NCBI GenBank assembly: GCA_029263455.1
Contig: JAJCXM010000020.1
Location: 62,001 to 126,000, forward strand
Length of the DNA stretch: 64,000 nucleotides
Source of the DNA: Holophagae bacterium
Lineage (GTDB): Bacteria; Acidobacteriota; Holophagae; Acanthopleuribacterales; Acanthopleuribacteraceae
Direction of reading: 5' to 3'
How positions within the stretch are numbered: position 1 is the first letter of the stretch; each line of letters begins with the position of its first letter. The notes beneath the pieces were generated by a model that worked only from the letters and a program-made list of their open reading frames with translations, was not told the DNA's origin and ran no database searches. The translations under genes were made by a program, and so were the position numbers. Shown here piece after piece: positions 38,325 to 46,063 of the stretch.

Positions 38325-38719
38325 TTACCAAAATCGATCATTTGGGTATTGCTGTGACCTCATTAGTCGAAGCATCTGAACGTTATCGTCAGTTGGGCTT
38401 CGCGTTTGAAGGCGAAGAAACAGTGATCGACCAAAAAGTCAAAGTAGCATTCTTTAGAGCAGGCGAGTCTCATATTGAGCTGCTTGAACCAACACACGAT
38501 GACTCACCCATTAGCAAGTTTCTCAATAGACGCGGACCAGGTATTCATCACGTGTGTGTCGAAGTTGAAGATATTGAAGCTGCATTGGCTAGTTACAAGG
38601 ACCAGGGAATTCAACTAATTAATAGTGAGCCTGTCATTGGTGCAGGTGGATGTCGCGTGGCATTTGTGCACCCTAAATCAACCCACGGCGTTTTGCTAGA
38701 GCTCAAGGAGAAAAAATGA
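38321..38719 (+). CDS. mce: Methylmalonyl-CoA epimerase
   Basis: A 132-residue vicinal-oxygen-chelate enzyme that interconverts (S)- and (R)-methylmalonyl-CoA. Metal ligands sit in DHLGIAV (His7), HIELLEP, GIHHVCVEVEDI and LLELKEKK at the end. Starts at TTG 38321, five bases after GGAGG, overlapping folD. With the PduO-type adenosyltransferase at 13806-14417 it points to a B12-dependent methylmalonyl-CoA mutase pathway elsewhere in the genome. Confidence 0.93.
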   Translation: MITKIDHLGIAVTSLVEASERYRQLGFAFEGEETVIDQKVKVAFFRAGESHIELLEPTHDDSPISKFLNRRGPGIHHVCVEVEDIEAALASYKDQGIQLINSEPVIGAGGCRVAFVHPKSTHGVLLELKEKK

Positions 38720-39165
38720 ATCGATCGATGTGCTACCTGTTGTTGGTAACTGGATTATTGGCCCTATCGGGTTGCTGGAAGAAGGTAGATTGGGGTAAGG
38801 CTGCCATCCCGGCAAATACGTTGGTACTTGAATTCTCACAACCTATCCGCTACGTGCTGGATTTGTCCGTCGACGGAAAACGTGTCCCTATCGATTACGG
38901 CCGTAGGAACCGTGTACTAATGATTACGGGCTTAAAACCCGACACTCACCATTTCAACATACACAGTATCTCGTATGTTTTTGGGCCCGAATTTGAACGG
39001 TTTGAAGTCAGCAACGAGGGCGGTGCTTATTTCTTCATTCAGTCGCGTAAATATCGGTCGGCGATACCTAAGGCCAAGGACCAAACGTCCATTCGCGCCT
39101 ATCGAAAGAGCTCCAAGAAAGACGAAGAATTGGCAAGTGCAAAGGTGCGTGCCGTTTTCAAATAA
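38716..39165 (+). CDS. Small lipoprotein of unknown function
   Basis: A 149-residue protein with a lipoprotein signal: a hydrophobic stretch ending LLALSGC, acylated at Cys20. The mature part has an immunoglobulin-like or PEGA-like beta pattern (ANTLVLEFSQPIRYVLDLSVDG, ITGLKPDTHHFNIHSISYVFG), then a basic tail. Residue after Cys is Trp, not Asp, consistent with outer-membrane sorting by Gram-negative rules. ATGA overlap with mce indicates co-translation. Confidence 0.78.
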   Translation: MNRSMCYLLLVTGLLALSGCWKKVDWGKAAIPANTLVLEFSQPIRYVLDLSVDGKRVPIDYGRRNRVLMITGLKPDTHHFNIHSISYVFGPEFERFEVSNEGGAYFFIQSRKYRSAIPKAKDQTSIRAYRKSSKKDEELASAKVRAVFK

Positions 39166-39210
39166 CTTGACCTTCAAAAAATTAATCGTATACGTCCACA
39201 TGCCTTTTGG

Positions 39211-39278: not shown

Positions 39279-42200
39279 ATGATTGGTGCCACAATTGACC
39301 AATTCAAGGTATTGGATATCTTGGGCGAGAGCGCCGTTAGCCGTATCTACCTTGCTGAGCATACCCAGACGGGTGGACGCTTTGTCTTGGAAGAGATCGG
39401 AACTGACCTAACTGGCAACTCCGAATTCAAGCAACGCATGATGGCCGATATCGTGCAATTGATCAAGATGGAGCATCCCAACATCATCTCTCCCACCAAT
39501 CTTTTAGAGGTGGAGGGACGTTATTATCTAGTCCGTGACCATCACGAAGGTCAGTCTCTAGGTGAGATGTTGAAGAAGCAGGGAGGCAAACTAGCACTAG
39601 ATGGCGTGGTTCGTATCTTTAAGGACATCCTTCGTGGCTTTGGCTATGCGCACAATGAAGGCTTTGTACATGTGCTTGTGAATCCCGACTGCATTCAAAT
39701 CGACGCAGATGGTGAAGCCAAAATTTCGGGATTTGGCACGATTCTGCAGCGCGAACTTGAACGTCGCCTATCCGACAAAGACAAAACACTTTATGCGCGT
39801 TATTTCCCACCAGAGCGATTCAATTACCCCGAAACAACCGACATTCGTACAAACATCTATTCTCTTGGCGGAATTCTTTTCGAAATGGTTACCGGTCGAC
39901 CACCTTTCAGTGGGACCACCATTTTTGAATTAGAGATGTCGCACTCGCAAGATGTTGTAGACGACCCCAGCATGATGAATGCAGCGCTGCCTCAAGGCAT
40001 CTCGTCTGCGATCATGAAAGCGATGGCGAAGAGCCCAGAAGATCGCTATCAAACGGCACTTGAATTTTATAAAGATTTAGAGAAAGTCGAGAATATGCGT
40101 CGTTCGGAGTTGTTTGGAGATGACTTCGTCAAAGGATTCGGAGAGATTTCTGGCCTGGGAGAATCCAAACCTCTAGTGATGGATTCGGACGCACCGTCAG
40201 CTTCCTTTAACTTGGGTTCCGAAGATAATCTCGACATGAGTTTTGATCTTCCAGAGGAGTCAGGTGGAGACAATTACATGGGCGCGACGGTTCGTGATGA
40301 AAGCGTAACGCCCGATATGTTCAAGATGCCAACTGCCGAACCTGAAGTTGCTAGCAACGATGTTTCTGCCGATGTCGGTGAGGACCTTGCCGACTGGGAA
40401 CAGCAATTTGATAATGACATGGCAGCAAGCAGTCCGCCATCGGCCGGCGCCCCACCAGCACCTAAAGCAGACAGCGAATTCGGGGCTTCATTTGATCTTG
40501 GCGGTGGAGACGATCTGGGTGGCGGCTTCGATTTTGGTAACCTTGAAACCGATACAGCGTTTGGAGACTTAGGCTCACCTCAAGAGAGTTTCCAGCTGGG
40601 TTCAAACGATGACCTAGATCAAAAAGAAACCATATCGGCTGAAAGTATGGGTCAAGGCCCACCTCAAGACTTTGCCTTCGATGATATGGGGAAAAGTATA
40701 GAACTCGATAGCGCGTTACCCGCTGAAGAGTCGGCAGCGGCACCAGCCGCATTTAGTTTTGAGTCGGATGATGGGGCATTTGCTTTTGAACAGGAAGCGG
40801 AACCTGAAATACCGGAAGTCAGACGGACACGCGAAGGGTTGCGTGAGAGTATTGATGCAGCTGGAATGGACGAACCTGTCATGCGAACGGTCACCGTTCG
40901 TCGGAGTGATCGGCGTTGGATTTATATAGCCGCCGCAGCTGTTGTTCTTTTTATTGCGATTGGCGGTCTATTCTGGCGAAACCAGCAAATCGAGAAGAAA
41001 TACAAGATCGTTCTTGACGATGCACGTCGGCTAATTAGTGATCAAAAATTGGAAGATGCGAGCGGTAAGTTACAGACCATATCCGCGAGTCTGCCAGATA
41101 AGTTCAAAGACGAACATAGTGAGTTGAACGCACAGATAAACAAGGCACTTGGGCAAGTCAAAGAGCAGGTCGACAATCTCGTGCAAAGGGCGCGTGAATT
41201 TGAACGGGATGAAAATTACCTCTCTGATGGGATCAACGATGCCATTGGAACGTATGTCAAGATCACAGAATTGCAACCCTCTAATAAGGATGCACAAAAG
41301 GCGATTGACGAAATCAAACGCGGTCAACTGGCAAGATCGACACAATTACAAGATAATGCCCAAGATGTCGAGTCACTTCGTGTGCTGGATGCTCTACGCA
41401 AAGTTTTGCCAGGCGATGCGGATGTCACCAAACGCTACAATGACTTACGAACGCGACTTGTAGCCGAAAAGTCAGGCACCTTAAAAACCGAAATCAATCA
41501 AAAGCTCAGCGAAGAAAAGTATGACGACGTGCCCTCTCTGTTTGCTGAACTAAGCGATATCGAACCGTCTTCCGATTTCCTTAAGCAAATGAGACCCACT
41601 CTGCTTGATAACTACACGCAAATGGCGATAGATGCACGGGCGCGCCAAGACTATGACTCAGCATTACGTTACTTCAACTACTGTCTGCAATTTGAGCCGG
41701 GCAACAAGCAAATTAATGCCGATCTTAAAGACTTGGAAACGGAAGCCTATAAGTTCACCGTTGAGAAAACAGGTGACGATTTAGAAAATGCCAGCCTCGA
41801 AAGTGACTACGCGAAGATGTACGCGCTGGCAACAAAACTAAATAATCTTGAGCCAGGTAACGGTAACGCGAATAGTGCCTTAATTCGGGTTACAGACTAT
41901 ATAAATGGGTTACGACGCCAAGCAATGGGTTTACGCGAACTAGGCCAGTTCAAAAAGGCGGCTAAGTTATACAAGGACATTTACGATGTTCATGGCGACT
42001 CAACCGCTTATGATCTGTGGCGAAAATATGACGGCTTTGCGCCACCCAGTGGGATGCGGCTTATCCCTGGTGGTCGTTTCGAAATGGGCTATTCGCCCGA
42101 TTCTTCAGCCCGGCCTGCTCATGATGTCACCATCTCTTCTCTCTTCATTGATAGCCACGAAACCAGTAACCAAGATTTTAAGCGCTTTGTCGATGCTAAT

Positions 42201-42761
42201 TCCCAATGGAAACCAGGCGCGATTGCGGCCGAATACCACGACGGCAACTACCTGAAACATTGGGAAAATGGCGCACCTCGTGCTGGCTCAGAGGATGAGC
42301 CCGTACGATATGTAAGTTGGTATGCGGCCAACGCTTATGCTAAATGGGTGGGTAAGCGTCTACCTACCGAAGCTGAATGGGAATGTGCCGCAAAAGGTGG
42401 CGAATCAGGCCAGAAATACTGGTGGGGTAATTATTCAGATGCGGAGAAAGCTGTCTACGAGTTTTATCCCCCTAAACGGCCAGCCAATGTCGGCTCGTTT
42501 CCAGCGAATCAGTACGGAATTTATGAAATATTGGGCAATGTAAGTGAGTGGGTTGCGGACACATACTCCTTATCGTTCTACGGTGAATCCAGAGGACAAA
42601 CCGATCCGGTTTTCAAGGGCCCAGGCGACAAGGTGAATCGAGGCGGTTGCTATCGAAACCGCGGCCGTGATCTTACTGTGTATAAACGGTTCAAGGCTGC
42701 AGCAGCAACCTGTTCACCTGAAATAGGATTTCGCTGTGCGCGTGACGCCAACATAAACTAG
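39279..42761 (+). CDS. Transmembrane pseudokinase fused to TPR-like stalk and FGE-like domain
   Basis: A 1160-residue protein. Residues 9-275 follow the Hanks kinase fold, but the VAIK lysine is Glu38 (VLEE), HRD is HVL (131-133) and DFG is GFG (151-153); the glycine loop is reduced to GESAVS. A long acidic linker (280-540) repeats SFxLGxxDxL three times. One membrane helix lies at about 546-566. The outside part has TPR-like helices (570-915) and a formylglycine-generating-enzyme-like domain (925-1160: MRLIPGGRFEMGY, RLPTEAEWECAAKGG, YEILGNVSEWVAD, IGFRCARD) without the FGE cysteine pair. ATG 39279 follows AGGATTAGGTG; an earlier ATG at 39207 overlaps promoter elements. Stop overlaps the convergent kinase stop. 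Confidence 0.88.
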   Translation: MIGATIDQFKVLDILGESAVSRIYLAEHTQTGGRFVLEEIGTDLTGNSEFKQRMMADIVQLIKMEHPNIISPTNLLEVEGRYYLVRDHHEGQSLGEMLKKQGGKLALDGVVRIFKDILRGFGYAHNEGFVHVLVNPDCIQIDADGEAKISGFGTILQRELERRLSDKDKTLYARYFPPERFNYPETTDIRTNIYSLGGILFEMVTGRPPFSGTTIFELEMSHSQDVVDDPSMMNAALPQGISSAIMKAMAKSPEDRYQTALEFYKDLEKVENMRRSELFGDDFVKGFGEISGLGESKPLVMDSDAPSASFNLGSEDNLDMSFDLPEESGGDNYMGATVRDESVTPDMFKMPTAEPEVASNDVSADVGEDLADWEQQFDNDMAASSPPSAGAPPAPKADSEFGASFDLGGGDDLGGGFDFGNLETDTAFGDLGSPQESFQLGSNDDLDQKETISAESMGQGPPQDFAFDDMGKSIELDSALPAEESAAAPAAFSFESDDGAFAFEQEAEPEIPEVRRTREGLRESIDAAGMDEPVMRTVTVRRSDRRWIYIAAAAVVLFIAIGGLFWRNQQIEKKYKIVLDDARRLISDQKLEDASGKLQTISASLPDKFKDEHSELNAQINKALGQVKEQVDNLVQRAREFERDENYLSDGINDAIGTYVKITELQPSNKDAQKAIDEIKRGQLARSTQLQDNAQDVESLRVLDALRKVLPGDADVTKRYNDLRTRLVAEKSGTLKTEINQKLSEEKYDDVPSLFAELSDIEPSSDFLKQMRPTLLDNYTQMAIDARARQDYDSALRYFNYCLQFEPGNKQINADLKDLETEAYKFTVEKTGDDLENASLESDYAKMYALATKLNNLEPGNGNANSALIRVTDYINGLRRQAMGLRELGQFKKAAKLYKDIYDVHGDSTAYDLWRKYDGFAPPSGMRLIPGGRFEMGYSPDSSARPAHDVTISSLFIDSHETSNQDFKRFVDANSQWKPGAIAAEYHDGNYLKHWENGAPRAGSEDEPVRYVSWYAANAYAKWVGKRLPTEAEWECAAKGGESGQKYWWGNYSDAEKAVYEFYPPKRPANVGSFPANQYGIYEILGNVSEWVADTYSLSFYGESRGQTDPVFKGPGDKVNRGGCYRNRGRDLTVYKRFKAAAATCSPEIGFRCARDANIN

Positions 42762-45340
42762 AGTGCGCCGCTCTCTTTGAGTTCAAGGTCGATCATGATT
42801 CTAAACAAACCTCTTTGACGGGTAACCGTCATAATGTCGGGGTAATTTTCAAGAATAATGGCGTCAGATTGTCGACATTCGCCCATCTCGGCTAACAGGA
42901 TCCCGTACCGTAGGCTGGTGAAGGCGCGGTAAACAGGAACTCGGCTGGGCGGCCAATCGCTTAATGCGTTCTCGTATAATTCTCTGCTCCTTTGCCAATC
43001 AAATTGCTTGTAGGCAACATGTGCCAAAAGGCTCGTGCACCATGCCTTTTGTACGCTAAATGTTCGCGGGCTAGCGTCGCTGAGTTCAATGAGGTTCTCA
43101 AAAATAATCGCGGCCTCGTCCAAAGCACCCATCTCGGTATTGATAATTCCTAAGTCTTCTCTTAAGTGATTTGTACTTACCCATGGCTGTATGCGCTCAA
43201 AATCATCAATCAGTTGATTCATTTGAACACTCATGTCTTGCCAGTCTGGTGCTGTATCCAGATGTATCAAACCCATTCTTATGTGGTTTCCAATGCGTAT
43301 CTCGCGATTTAAGAGCGTTTTAATGTGGTCCGGGCCGTAGCGACGCTCGAATTCCGGTGTGAAATCTTCAAATAGTGCTTCAGCCTCGTTGAGCCGGCTA
43401 TCTACCTGCAATAGTTGGGCGTAACTGTGTGATGCCTTTAGAACGACAATGTGATCACGGCCAAAATGGGATTCTGCCGTGGGTAGATAGGATTCATATA
43501 GCCGATTGGCGTATTCGAAATCTCCTAGTGAAGTGACGATCAATGCGCGATTAAATAACGTCTCGATACGCGCTGACTCGTCGCCTATTTCGGCGTATCC
43601 AGCGATGACTTTATCGATCAGCTCTATAGCCGCCTTCCCATCTTGTCGTGTCATTGATAAAGCCAAGAATGAATGGGCATTTAACGTTTTGGGATGCAGG
43701 TATCCTTGCCATTTGGAAAGTTGGGCACATGCTAGCTCAACTCGCGGCATGCCATCGGTTGGTCGAAAAACGAATTCTGCACGGCCGTATTCAAACAGCG
43801 CGTCAATCGTGCGCGTGTCGTTGGGCCCAAACTGTTTTTGAAAGTAATCGTGTGCGTGTTGGGCGTGTGTCAAAGCATCTTCGTACCTGCCAGCCGCATA
43901 GCTGAGACCAGCTAGGTTGAGACGAACCAAGTTACGTGTTTGCGGGTCACTTATGTCTTGATCCAAGCTAAGGGCCATGTTCCCCAGTACATCACTTACC
44001 TTTAAGTTGTCACCTAAACTGTCGGGGCTTGATTGCGACAGTTGCTCGGTGAAATACGACATCAGCTTTTCGGCGCGTAGGCGTTCGTTTTGAGCGATGG
44101 CTTTGGCCTTTGTTGCCCGCATGTATCCTGTAACGATTCCTGCGAGAGAAATCATTATGGATAGCGAGAGAATCAAGCCTGCTGCTACGATCCACTTATG
44201 CCTGCGAATGAACTTCCGCGTGATGTATGAAATGGAAGGAGGTCGTGCAGACACAGGACGATGAGTCAGATAGTTTTGGATGTCCGTTGCCAATTCTTGC
44301 ACCGAGCTATAACGTCGCTGCCGATCGCGCGCGGTTGCTTTTGCAACGATCCAATCGAGTTCTCCTGCAACCGTGCGCGCTTCCAGCGAGTGTCCCTGTG
44401 CGTGCAAACGATCACTCGGTTTAGGTGTGTCAACGTGCAGAGTACTTTGCATGAGTTTTAGCACTGCAAGCGGAGACGCGTATTCCAGATTATGCACGGG
44501 CGATCCGGTGATCATTTCGAATAAGAGCACGCCAAGTCCGAACACGTCGGCACGCGTGTCGACATCCAGTTCATTCACTATTTGTTCAGGACTAACATAG
44601 CCGGGCGTGCCAACGGTAATACCGTCTTTGGTCAATGTGTAAGCAGCCACGGGATTGTGCGTCATCTTCGCAATGCCAAAATCGATGACTTTAGGTGATC
44701 CAGATGTTCCACAAACGAGCACGTTTGAAGGTTTGATGTCGCGGTGAATAATACCTTTTTGATGCGCGTGCTGCATGGCAAGGCAGACTTTGATGAACAG
44801 ATCCAGACGATCCTCAAGAGTTAGGTCCCTGCTGTATTCACTGATAGTTGAGCCGTCTATGTATTCCATGGCAATAAAGGGCCGACCTTGATGCACGCCC
44901 ACCTGATAAATTTGCGCAATCGAGGGGTGATTCAGTCGGCCCATAATCTCGCGTTCGGCCATGAACCGTTCATGAACGGTTTCTGACCTACCATCTCGCC
45001 TTAGCATCTTTATGGCAATCAGTCGGTTTGGCTCATCTTGTTTAGCAAGAAAAACGTCGCCCATGCCGCCGGCCCCTAGCTTGCGTTCCAAGGTGTAGGA
45101 AGGAGGTAGATCGATGTTAGGTTCCGGAAGATCGCTTTCGAAGAGCAGTTCCAGCCCTTCCAAGCTATCTCCAACTAGCAGGTCACTTATCAGCAAGTCT
45201 TGAAGTTGTTGCTCAAGATCTGGATGACTGTCACTTAATTCTCTTAAGCGGGCCTCTCTGTCTTGGTCGCTCAATCCAATGAGCAAATTGAAATGGTGCT
45301 CAAGGTCGGCCAGCTCTGGTCGGCTCAATTTGACGTTCAT
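42758..45340 (-). CDS. Transmembrane Ser/Thr protein kinase with C-terminal TPR sensor part
   Basis: An 860-residue Hanks-type kinase. After about 75 helical residues the catalytic domain (81-355) is complete: GAGGMGDVF loop, Lys111 in IAIKML, Asp201 in HRDIKPSN, Asp220 in IDFGIAK, GTPGYVSPEQ. One membrane helix at about 384-410 is followed by roughly 450 residues of TPR-like helices outside (YAAGRYEDALTHAQHAHDYF, DEAAIIFENLIELS). The build is common in Acidobacteriota and Planctomycetes, usually beside an ECF sigma gene, as here. It is divergent from that sigma gene and convergent with the pseudokinase, sharing CTAG. Confidence 0.93.
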   Translation of the reverse strand: MNVKLSRPELADLEHHFNLLIGLSDQDREARLRELSDSHPDLEQQLQDLLISDLLVGDSLEGLELLFESDLPEPNIDLPPSYTLERKLGAGGMGDVFLAKQDEPNRLIAIKMLRRDGRSETVHERFMAEREIMGRLNHPSIAQIYQVGVHQGRPFIAMEYIDGSTISEYSRDLTLEDRLDLFIKVCLAMQHAHQKGIIHRDIKPSNVLVCGTSGSPKVIDFGIAKMTHNPVAAYTLTKDGITVGTPGYVSPEQIVNELDVDTRADVFGLGVLLFEMITGSPVHNLEYASPLAVLKLMQSTLHVDTPKPSDRLHAQGHSLEARTVAGELDWIVAKATARDRQRRYSSVQELATDIQNYLTHRPVSARPPSISYITRKFIRRHKWIVAAGLILSLSIMISLAGIVTGYMRATKAKAIAQNERLRAEKLMSYFTEQLSQSSPDSLGDNLKVSDVLGNMALSLDQDISDPQTRNLVRLNLAGLSYAAGRYEDALTHAQHAHDYFQKQFGPNDTRTIDALFEYGRAEFVFRPTDGMPRVELACAQLSKWQGYLHPKTLNAHSFLALSMTRQDGKAAIELIDKVIAGYAEIGDESARIETLFNRALIVTSLGDFEYANRLYESYLPTAESHFGRDHIVVLKASHSYAQLLQVDSRLNEAEALFEDFTPEFERRYGPDHIKTLLNREIRIGNHIRMGLIHLDTAPDWQDMSVQMNQLIDDFERIQPWVSTNHLREDLGIINTEMGALDEAAIIFENLIELSDASPRTFSVQKAWCTSLLAHVAYKQFDWQRSRELYENALSDWPPSRVPVYRAFTSLRYGILLAEMGECRQSDAIILENYPDIMTVTRQRGLFRIMIDLELKESGAL

Positions 45341-45517
45341 GATCTATCAATATACCTTGTTGTCGCCGTGGATGTGTTCAATGAGGATGGACTTTATGGA
45401 CGGTTGCTCGAATACAACGCTACCTGAGCCTTTGGCGCACAGGAAATTGCCAATGGCTTTCCAGTTAGAACATTCGTCAATGAGCGCAAAAACAGATCAA
45501 CTAATTTTTGGTATGCT
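45341..45517. promoter_or_regulatory. Kinase/sigma divergent control region
   Basis: This intergenic stretch separates the divergent kinase and sigma genes. An extended -10, TGGTATGCT (hexamer 45512-45517), faces the sigma gene; the -35 is weak. It ends exactly at the TTG codon 45518, which suggests translation starts further downstream. No clear minus-strand promoter was identified. Confidence 0.4.
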
Positions 45518-46063
45518 TTGTGCTCCTCTTCGGGTGACCTTTTTTGTGCAGTAATCGGATGGGTAAACTTGGATGCTTTAAGTCATGATGTCTATCAAGA
45601 ATTGAGAAAAGTTGCACAACGCGCGTTGGGCCGCACGCCTTCCAAGTCAACACTCAGTCCCACGGTTCTAGTACACGAAGTCTGGCTTAAATTGGCCAAA
45701 CAATCGATTGAATGGGAGAACCGCAGTCATTTTCTCAGTTATGCTGCGACGGCGATGAGAGGAATCCTGGTTGACTACCTAAGGACGGCAAGTAGGCAAA
45801 AACGCGCGGGTGACAAACTACGAGTCACCTTTTCGGAAGATTTGAGTGTGGGAAAGTTAGAGCAGGATTTTGACGTGCTCAATCAAGTGCTTGAAGAATT
45901 AGAACGCTCGGATCCTGAGAAGGCCAAAATGGTTGAGTTGAGATTTTTCTGTGGCTGTTCAATTGAAGAAACCGCAGAAGTTATGGGCGTTTCCACGGCC
46001 ACAATCAAGCGAAGATGGCGATTCACGCGAGCCTGGTTGTTTGCTCGCCTCAACAGCCACTAA
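45518..46063 (+). CDS. ECF-type RNA polymerase sigma factor (Sigma70_ECF)
   Basis: Up to 181 residues. Region 2 has VYQELRKVAQRALGR, TVLVHEVWLKL, WENRSHFLSYAATAMRGILVDYLR; region 4 has MVELRFFCGCSIEETAEVMGVSTATIKRRWRFTRAWL. This is the ECF group usually paired with Ser/Thr kinases in Acidobacteriota and Planctomycetes; no anti-sigma gene is adjacent. The start is doubtful: TTG 45518 abuts a probable -10, and TTG 45569 (after GGATGGG) would give 164 residues. Either form lacks the usual ITxLLxxWxxGD helix in full. Ends in a four-base overlap with convergent tpiA. Confidence 0.85.
   Translation: MCSSSGDLFCAVIGWVNLDALSHDVYQELRKVAQRALGRTPSKSTLSPTVLVHEVWLKLAKQSIEWENRSHFLSYAATAMRGILVDYLRTASRQKRAGDKLRVTFSEDLSVGKLEQDFDVLNQVLEELERSDPEKAKMVELRFFCGCSIEETAEVMGVSTATIKRRWRFTRAWLFARLNSH

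Follow-up and report, generated by a model that had tools for sequence, protein, structure and literature searches.

Bacterial pseudokinases are an established class of proteins (PMC12599244), large and recognised, for which very few functions are known. Families named within the class are ActPs1-3, GLW, CP1, DYD and DLHK (PMC12599244). EssB/YukC of the T7SSb system is a single-pass membrane protein with a scaffolding role, and its cytoplasmic pseudokinase domain is degraded in all three kinase motifs (PMC12599244). The pseudokinase domain ActPs3 of MviN/MurJ from Mycobacterium is likewise linked to the membrane and does not bind ATP (PMC12599244), but it belongs to a transmembrane protein of peptidoglycan synthesis and is deleted in the activation loop and elsewhere. 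A kinase domain followed by a domain resembling the formylglycine-generating enzyme (FGE) is found in chlamydial Pkn1, which carries an FGE/NirV-like domain (chlamydial STYKs, PMC1262709). Pkn1 autophosphorylates and is predicted in a review to be cytoplasmic (PMC5177608); the accessible parts of these accounts report neither a TPR domain nor a comparable linker.

A protein encoded in the window (the whole 64,000-nucleotide stretch of Holophagae bacterium DNA analysed here) is a membrane protein that combines a dead kinase with a dead FGE domain. Its gene is a single open frame free of internal stops. The probable start is the ATG at 39279, preferred over an upstream TTG at 39207 because all seven orthologs share the sequence MIGxT. 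From the N-terminus, a Hanks-type kinase fold is followed by an acidic linker, a transmembrane (TM) helix, a TPR superhelix and an FGE/SUMF1-like domain. The features are as follows.

39279 to 42761, forward strand: whole gene, 1160 residues plus stop; an open frame with one ortholog per genome in six further genomes of the family.
39279 to 40088, forward strand: pseudokinase domain, residues 1-270, presumably cytoplasmic (Pfam Pkinase, E 1e-25; AlphaFold2 pLDDT 95; PDB match to bacterial Ser/Thr kinases).
39390 to 39392, forward strand: Glu38 in place of the VAIK lysine; the seven orthologs have E, E, H, K, K, K and K.
39447 to 39449, forward strand: Asp57 in place of the alpha-C glutamate.
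39669 to 39677, forward strand: HVL at the HRD motif; all seven orthologs lack the catalytic Asp.
39729 to 39737, forward strand: GFG at the DFG motif; six of the seven lack the Asp.
39852 to 39854, forward strand: Asn192 at the site of the invariant alpha-F aspartate; Asn or Ser in all seven.
40089 to 40898, forward strand: acidic, F/G-rich low-complexity linker, residues 271-540.
40917 to 40976, forward strand: TM helix, residues 547-566, after RRSDRR, with the N-terminus inside (hydropathy scan; position kept in the ortholog alignment).
40989 to 41993, forward strand: TPR superhelix, residues 571-905, presumably periplasmic (AlphaFold2 pLDDT mostly ~90; PDB matches to TPR superhelices; weak Pfam TPR hits).
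42051 to 42743, forward strand: FGE/SUMF1-like domain, residues 925-1155 (Pfam FGE-sulfatase, E 1e-51; matches to human SUMF1 and SUMF2).
42657 to 42674, forward strand: N1127 to L1132, the sites of the missing FGE catalytic cysteine pair (alignment to SUMF1; absent in all seven orthologs).

The first-pass annotation of this DNA had described a pseudokinase and a non-catalytic FGE-like domain connected through one membrane helix. A hydropathy scan of the 1160-residue chain bears out the single helix, with one strong hydrophobic segment at ~547-566. Two parts absent from that description are the TPR superhelix and the acidic linker rich in F and G. According to the positive-inside rule, the RRSDRR sequence ahead of the segment places the N-terminal half inside and the C-terminal half outside, suggesting that the kinase-like half is cytoplasmic and the TPR and FGE-like half periplasmic.

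The kinase fold has been kept, as had been claimed. The Pfam match covers residues 10-257, the AlphaFold2 model is a complete two-lobe kinase, and the closest PDB structures belong to bacterial Ser/Thr kinases of PknB/Stk1 type, with TM scores of 0.84-0.88 to S. aureus PknB. When the motifs were placed by alignment to this structure (4eqm), E38 fell at the VAIK lysine, HVLVNPDC at HRDIKPQN and GFG at DFG, so that all three residues that define an active Hanks-type Ser/Thr kinase are indeed missing from the window protein. The Gly-rich loop reads GESAVS instead of GxGxxG, the lysine of HRDxK is replaced by Asn, the Asn of the catalytic loop by Cys and the P+1 Thr by Tyr. The retained residues are structural ones: the HRD His, the APE Glu and its partner Arg. 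Nearly all catalytic positions are invariant in 21 active paralogs from the same genome. With its kinase fold, lost catalytic residues and conservation across a clade, the protein belongs to the bacterial pseudokinases. It differs from EssB/YukC in that its kinase domain is almost full-length and its activation segment as long as usual, in its long FG-rich linker and its TPR and FGE-like domains, and in coming from the Acidobacteriota.

A single-copy ortholog occurs in all seven genomes examined of the Acanthopleuribacteraceae, a family of marine acidobacteria. When 61 related genomes were searched (E 1e-30), each of the six further family members yielded a single full-length ortholog, and the 54 other genomes of the class yielded none at that threshold. 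No further ortholog came from 396 genomes sampled evenly across the phylum (E 1e-60). In a contig scan of a named collection, the single protein as query found no relatives, and an alignment as query found the six orthologs, which belong to Sulfidibacter corallicola M133 (complete chromosome), Acanthopleuribacter pedis KCTC 12899 and four metagenome-assembled genomes; the remaining 61 loci from the alignment query align essentially only with its FGE-side segment.

A full-length alignment of the seven orthologs indicates that the catalytic residues are lost stepwise, not simultaneously. The HRD Asp is lost in all seven, the DFG Asp in six and the VAIK Lys in three; the lysine is present in S. 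corallicola, A. pedis, 8_bin.70 and MO_135.B14, and the DFG Asp in MO_135.B14 alone. Loss across the whole clade, which the first-pass annotation proposed to check for all three, thus holds for the HRD Asp, but not for the VAIK Lys, kept in four of seven, or the DFG Asp, kept in one. Also lost throughout are the HRDxK Lys, the P+1 Thr and the alpha-F Asp. In a tree of kinase domains, the orthologs form one clade separate from the 21 active paralogs (support 100/100), and the three without the VAIK Lys cluster together (97/96). The simplest order of loss would be the HRD Asp first and the DFG Asp and VAIK Lys afterwards. Whether the DFG Asp was lost once or twice depends on the attachment point of MO_135.B14, which differs between the kinase-domain tree and a tree of the TPR and FGE-like parts. 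Because of the retained Lys and Asp residues, some members of the clade may still bind nucleotide. Several residues are invariant in the orthologs and depart from the active-kinase consensus. Among them, L156, E161, R180 and I189 lie in or beside the activation segment and are candidates for an interface; such ortholog-specific residues near this segment are what a new interface would be expected to leave.

These findings make it probable that the protein is a non-catalytic single-pass receptor or scaffold, whose periplasmic FGE-like/TPR side binds a component of the envelope and whose cytoplasmic kinase-like domain docks a partner. The FGE-like domain, which has a C-type-lectin fold, would bind the cell-envelope component at the end of a TPR stalk, and binding outside would be passed through the membrane helix so as to position or cluster the kinase-like domains inside. 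These domains would transfer no phosphate; the partners they are likeliest to dock are found among the ~80 active Hanks-type kinases that the cell has and the substrates of those kinases, and this docking may gate signalling or assembly in a manner similar to EssB/YukC. The analysis establishes the order of the domains, the lost catalytic machinery, the missing FGE cysteines and the retention of both modules within one clade; the topology, the lack of nucleotide binding by the window protein, its binding of a ligand and its docking of a partner are all parts of this reading that we infer. The claim that the chain is a 'double non-enzyme' in the membrane finds support in the sequence, the predicted structure, the seven orthologs and the pattern of selection. 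More tentatively, the orthologs may be a clade-specific receptor family of the Acanthopleuribacteraceae in which catalysis was lost, the HRD Asp first and the DFG Asp and VAIK Lys in separate lineages, leaving an obligate signalling hub in the membrane that is non-catalytic and carries a cytoplasmic linker resembling FG repeats, sister lineages still holding the intermediates.

P. aeruginosa has a regulatory pair for its type VI secretion system (T6SS), consisting of TagR, a periplasmic FGE-like protein, and PpkA, a kinase. The tagR1 gene of HSI-I encodes an FGE-sulfatase-domain protein (PMC13411936). The window protein might be such a pair merged into one T6SS regulator, with the dead kinase recruiting an FHA protein or another kinase. 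Genes of the VipB/TssC family are present in all seven genomes with the gene and in two of the 54 other genomes of the class. The genes scanned in the T6SS cluster of its own genome include one for an FHA-domain protein and none for a kinase or an FGE-like protein. However, this co-occurrence is seen in one clade only and amounts to roughly a single event, and the gene lies away from the T6SS cluster, on contig C20 as against C19. This explanation is considered improbable, although it is the best of the alternatives to a receptor or scaffold. The cluster on C19 (L219/L220) contains three VipB/TssC-family genes within ~11 kb, one of them also weakly VipA-like, and the three-copy arrangement is present in all seven family genomes.

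The immediate neighbourhood is uninformative on function, since it is conserved only within the genus. The upstream genes for a lipoprotein, VOC, folD, fluC and VWA are common only to this genome and a congener (G001), and a function based on an operon was rejected for this reason and because the convergent pair of kinase and ECF sigma factor was not found in the congener's stretch. This pair (42758-46063) comprises a gene for an ECF sigma factor and an active kinase-TPR gene whose stop overlaps that of the pseudokinase by 4 bases; as neither was found at the congener's locus, which is otherwise syntenic, they probably reflect an insertion or a loss in one lineage. Directly upstream, 38716-39165 encodes a small predicted lipoprotein with the lipobox LSGC, shared with the congener only and without a match in Pfam or NCBIfam.

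It is quite unlikely that the kinase-like domain has another ATP-dependent activity or carries out unconventional phosphorylation. Enzymes with a pseudokinase fold and such activities exist, for example SelO in AMPylation and SidJ in glutamylation (PMC12599244). The VAIK Lys and DFG Asp that survive in four and one of the seven orthologs would also fit, but in the window protein the Gly loop, VAIK Lys, alpha-C Glu, HRD Asp, HRDxK Lys, catalytic-loop Asn and DFG Asp are all replaced. SelO relies on its ATP- and metal-binding residues. SidJ, too, requires them (PMC12599244).

The FGE-like domain matches the FGE-sulfatase profile PF03781 over its full extent (residues 925-1155, profile positions 4-255 of 255), and an FGE/SUMF1-like profile matches in all seven orthologs. 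AlphaFold2 models this part with low confidence from the seven-sequence alignment (pLDDT <50 from model residue 446). The catalytic cysteines of human FGE, Cys336 and Cys341, correspond to N1127 and L1132 in the alignment to SUMF1, which upholds the first-pass annotation on the missing C-terminal pair. The domain could have oxidase activity of a different, PvdO-like type, or could modify a partner, and it does have weak profile similarity to PvdO, EgtB and SenA. This is very unlikely, as the pair is missing throughout the orthologs, its scores fall far short of the cut-offs set for the enzyme models, and the best matches are SUMF1 and SUMF2, the latter among the top Foldseek matches. SUMF2 (pFGE), the inactive human paralogue of FGE, similarly combines the FGE fold with a missing cysteine pair, but it is a soluble ER protein with no kinase fusion. 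Sequences related to the domain include SUMF2, PorK/GldK, PvdO and EgtB-type proteins, all of which are known to lack the pair. An FGE-like domain without the cysteines is thus common, and unremarkable alone.

The dead kinase-like domain is functional and under strong purifying selection, because between the window protein and its congener it has kept 76% amino-acid identity while four-fold sites, at 27%, are saturated. The corresponding identity is 73% for the FGE-like domain and 56% for the TPR part, which is less well conserved than the kinase-like domain. The gene is retained in all seven genomes despite differing neighbours outside the genus. The stepwise loss of residues might suggest an active kinase in decay, but pseudogene-like drift is excluded by this constraint, and a sequencing error, which would have undone the first-pass annotation, by a frame intact in seven genomes including one complete chromosome, so that this explanation has a negligible chance.

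The genome has 86 kinase-domain hits, 82 of which keep the VAIK Lys, HRD Asp and DFG Asp, so docking partners would be plentiful for a non-catalytic receptor or scaffold. Active kinase-FGE fusions had been cited as known, and they also occur in this genome and phylum. Three others in the genome (L040, L044, L052) retain all three catalytic residues, as do nine other readable Hanks-kinase-FGE fusions in the phylum sample, with the VAIK region of L210 outside coverage; within this sample, loss of catalysis in kinase-FGE proteins is confined to the clade of the window protein. L040, L044, L052, L192, L193, L195, L199 and others share the N-terminal Hanks-type kinase and C-terminal FGE-like domain, and the first three have an apparent membrane helix in between, but their chains are shorter and the Lys and both Asp residues are present where covered. 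The parallel with Pkn1 drawn in the first-pass annotation stands as a kinase-FGE fusion (PMC1262709) but is weakened by the predicted cytoplasmic location of Pkn1 (PMC5177608) and, judging from the residues lost here, by its autophosphorylation. Neither FGE, sulfatase nor formylglycine occurs in the accessible text of the review of bacterial pseudokinase families (PMC12599244), and no description of a pseudokinase combined with an FGE/SUMF1 domain was found in the open-access literature, which is weak evidence of absence. The novelty is narrower than had been implied: membrane pseudokinases are a known kind, and it is the combination with a TPR and FGE-like ectodomain that was not found described. 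The pseudokinase is single-copy throughout a family that includes the cultured A. pedis and S. corallicola, beside a large active kinome. With orthologs holding different subsets of the catalytic residues, the order in which nucleotide binding and catalysis were lost and the docking target are directly testable.

The linker is acidic with FDFG/FxFG motifs, and its length varies from ~250 to ~740 residues across the orthologs; the four longest orthologs (L034-L037) have 8 to 25 FxFG motifs. It resembles FG-repeat low-complexity regions. In a scan across genomes, FG motifs cluster in the ortholog linkers and occur singly elsewhere, the latter hits being unfiltered for reading frame. The genome's four pseudokinases include, besides the window protein, L054, L063 and L114: one has an apparent membrane helix and a coiled coil, one is a long CP1-like chain in which ATPase- and GAF-like regions can be made out by eye, and one continues into TPR-like sequence. 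A further kinase gene (L090, G000:C34:127802-128422) has two in-frame TGA codons and is probably a pseudogene.
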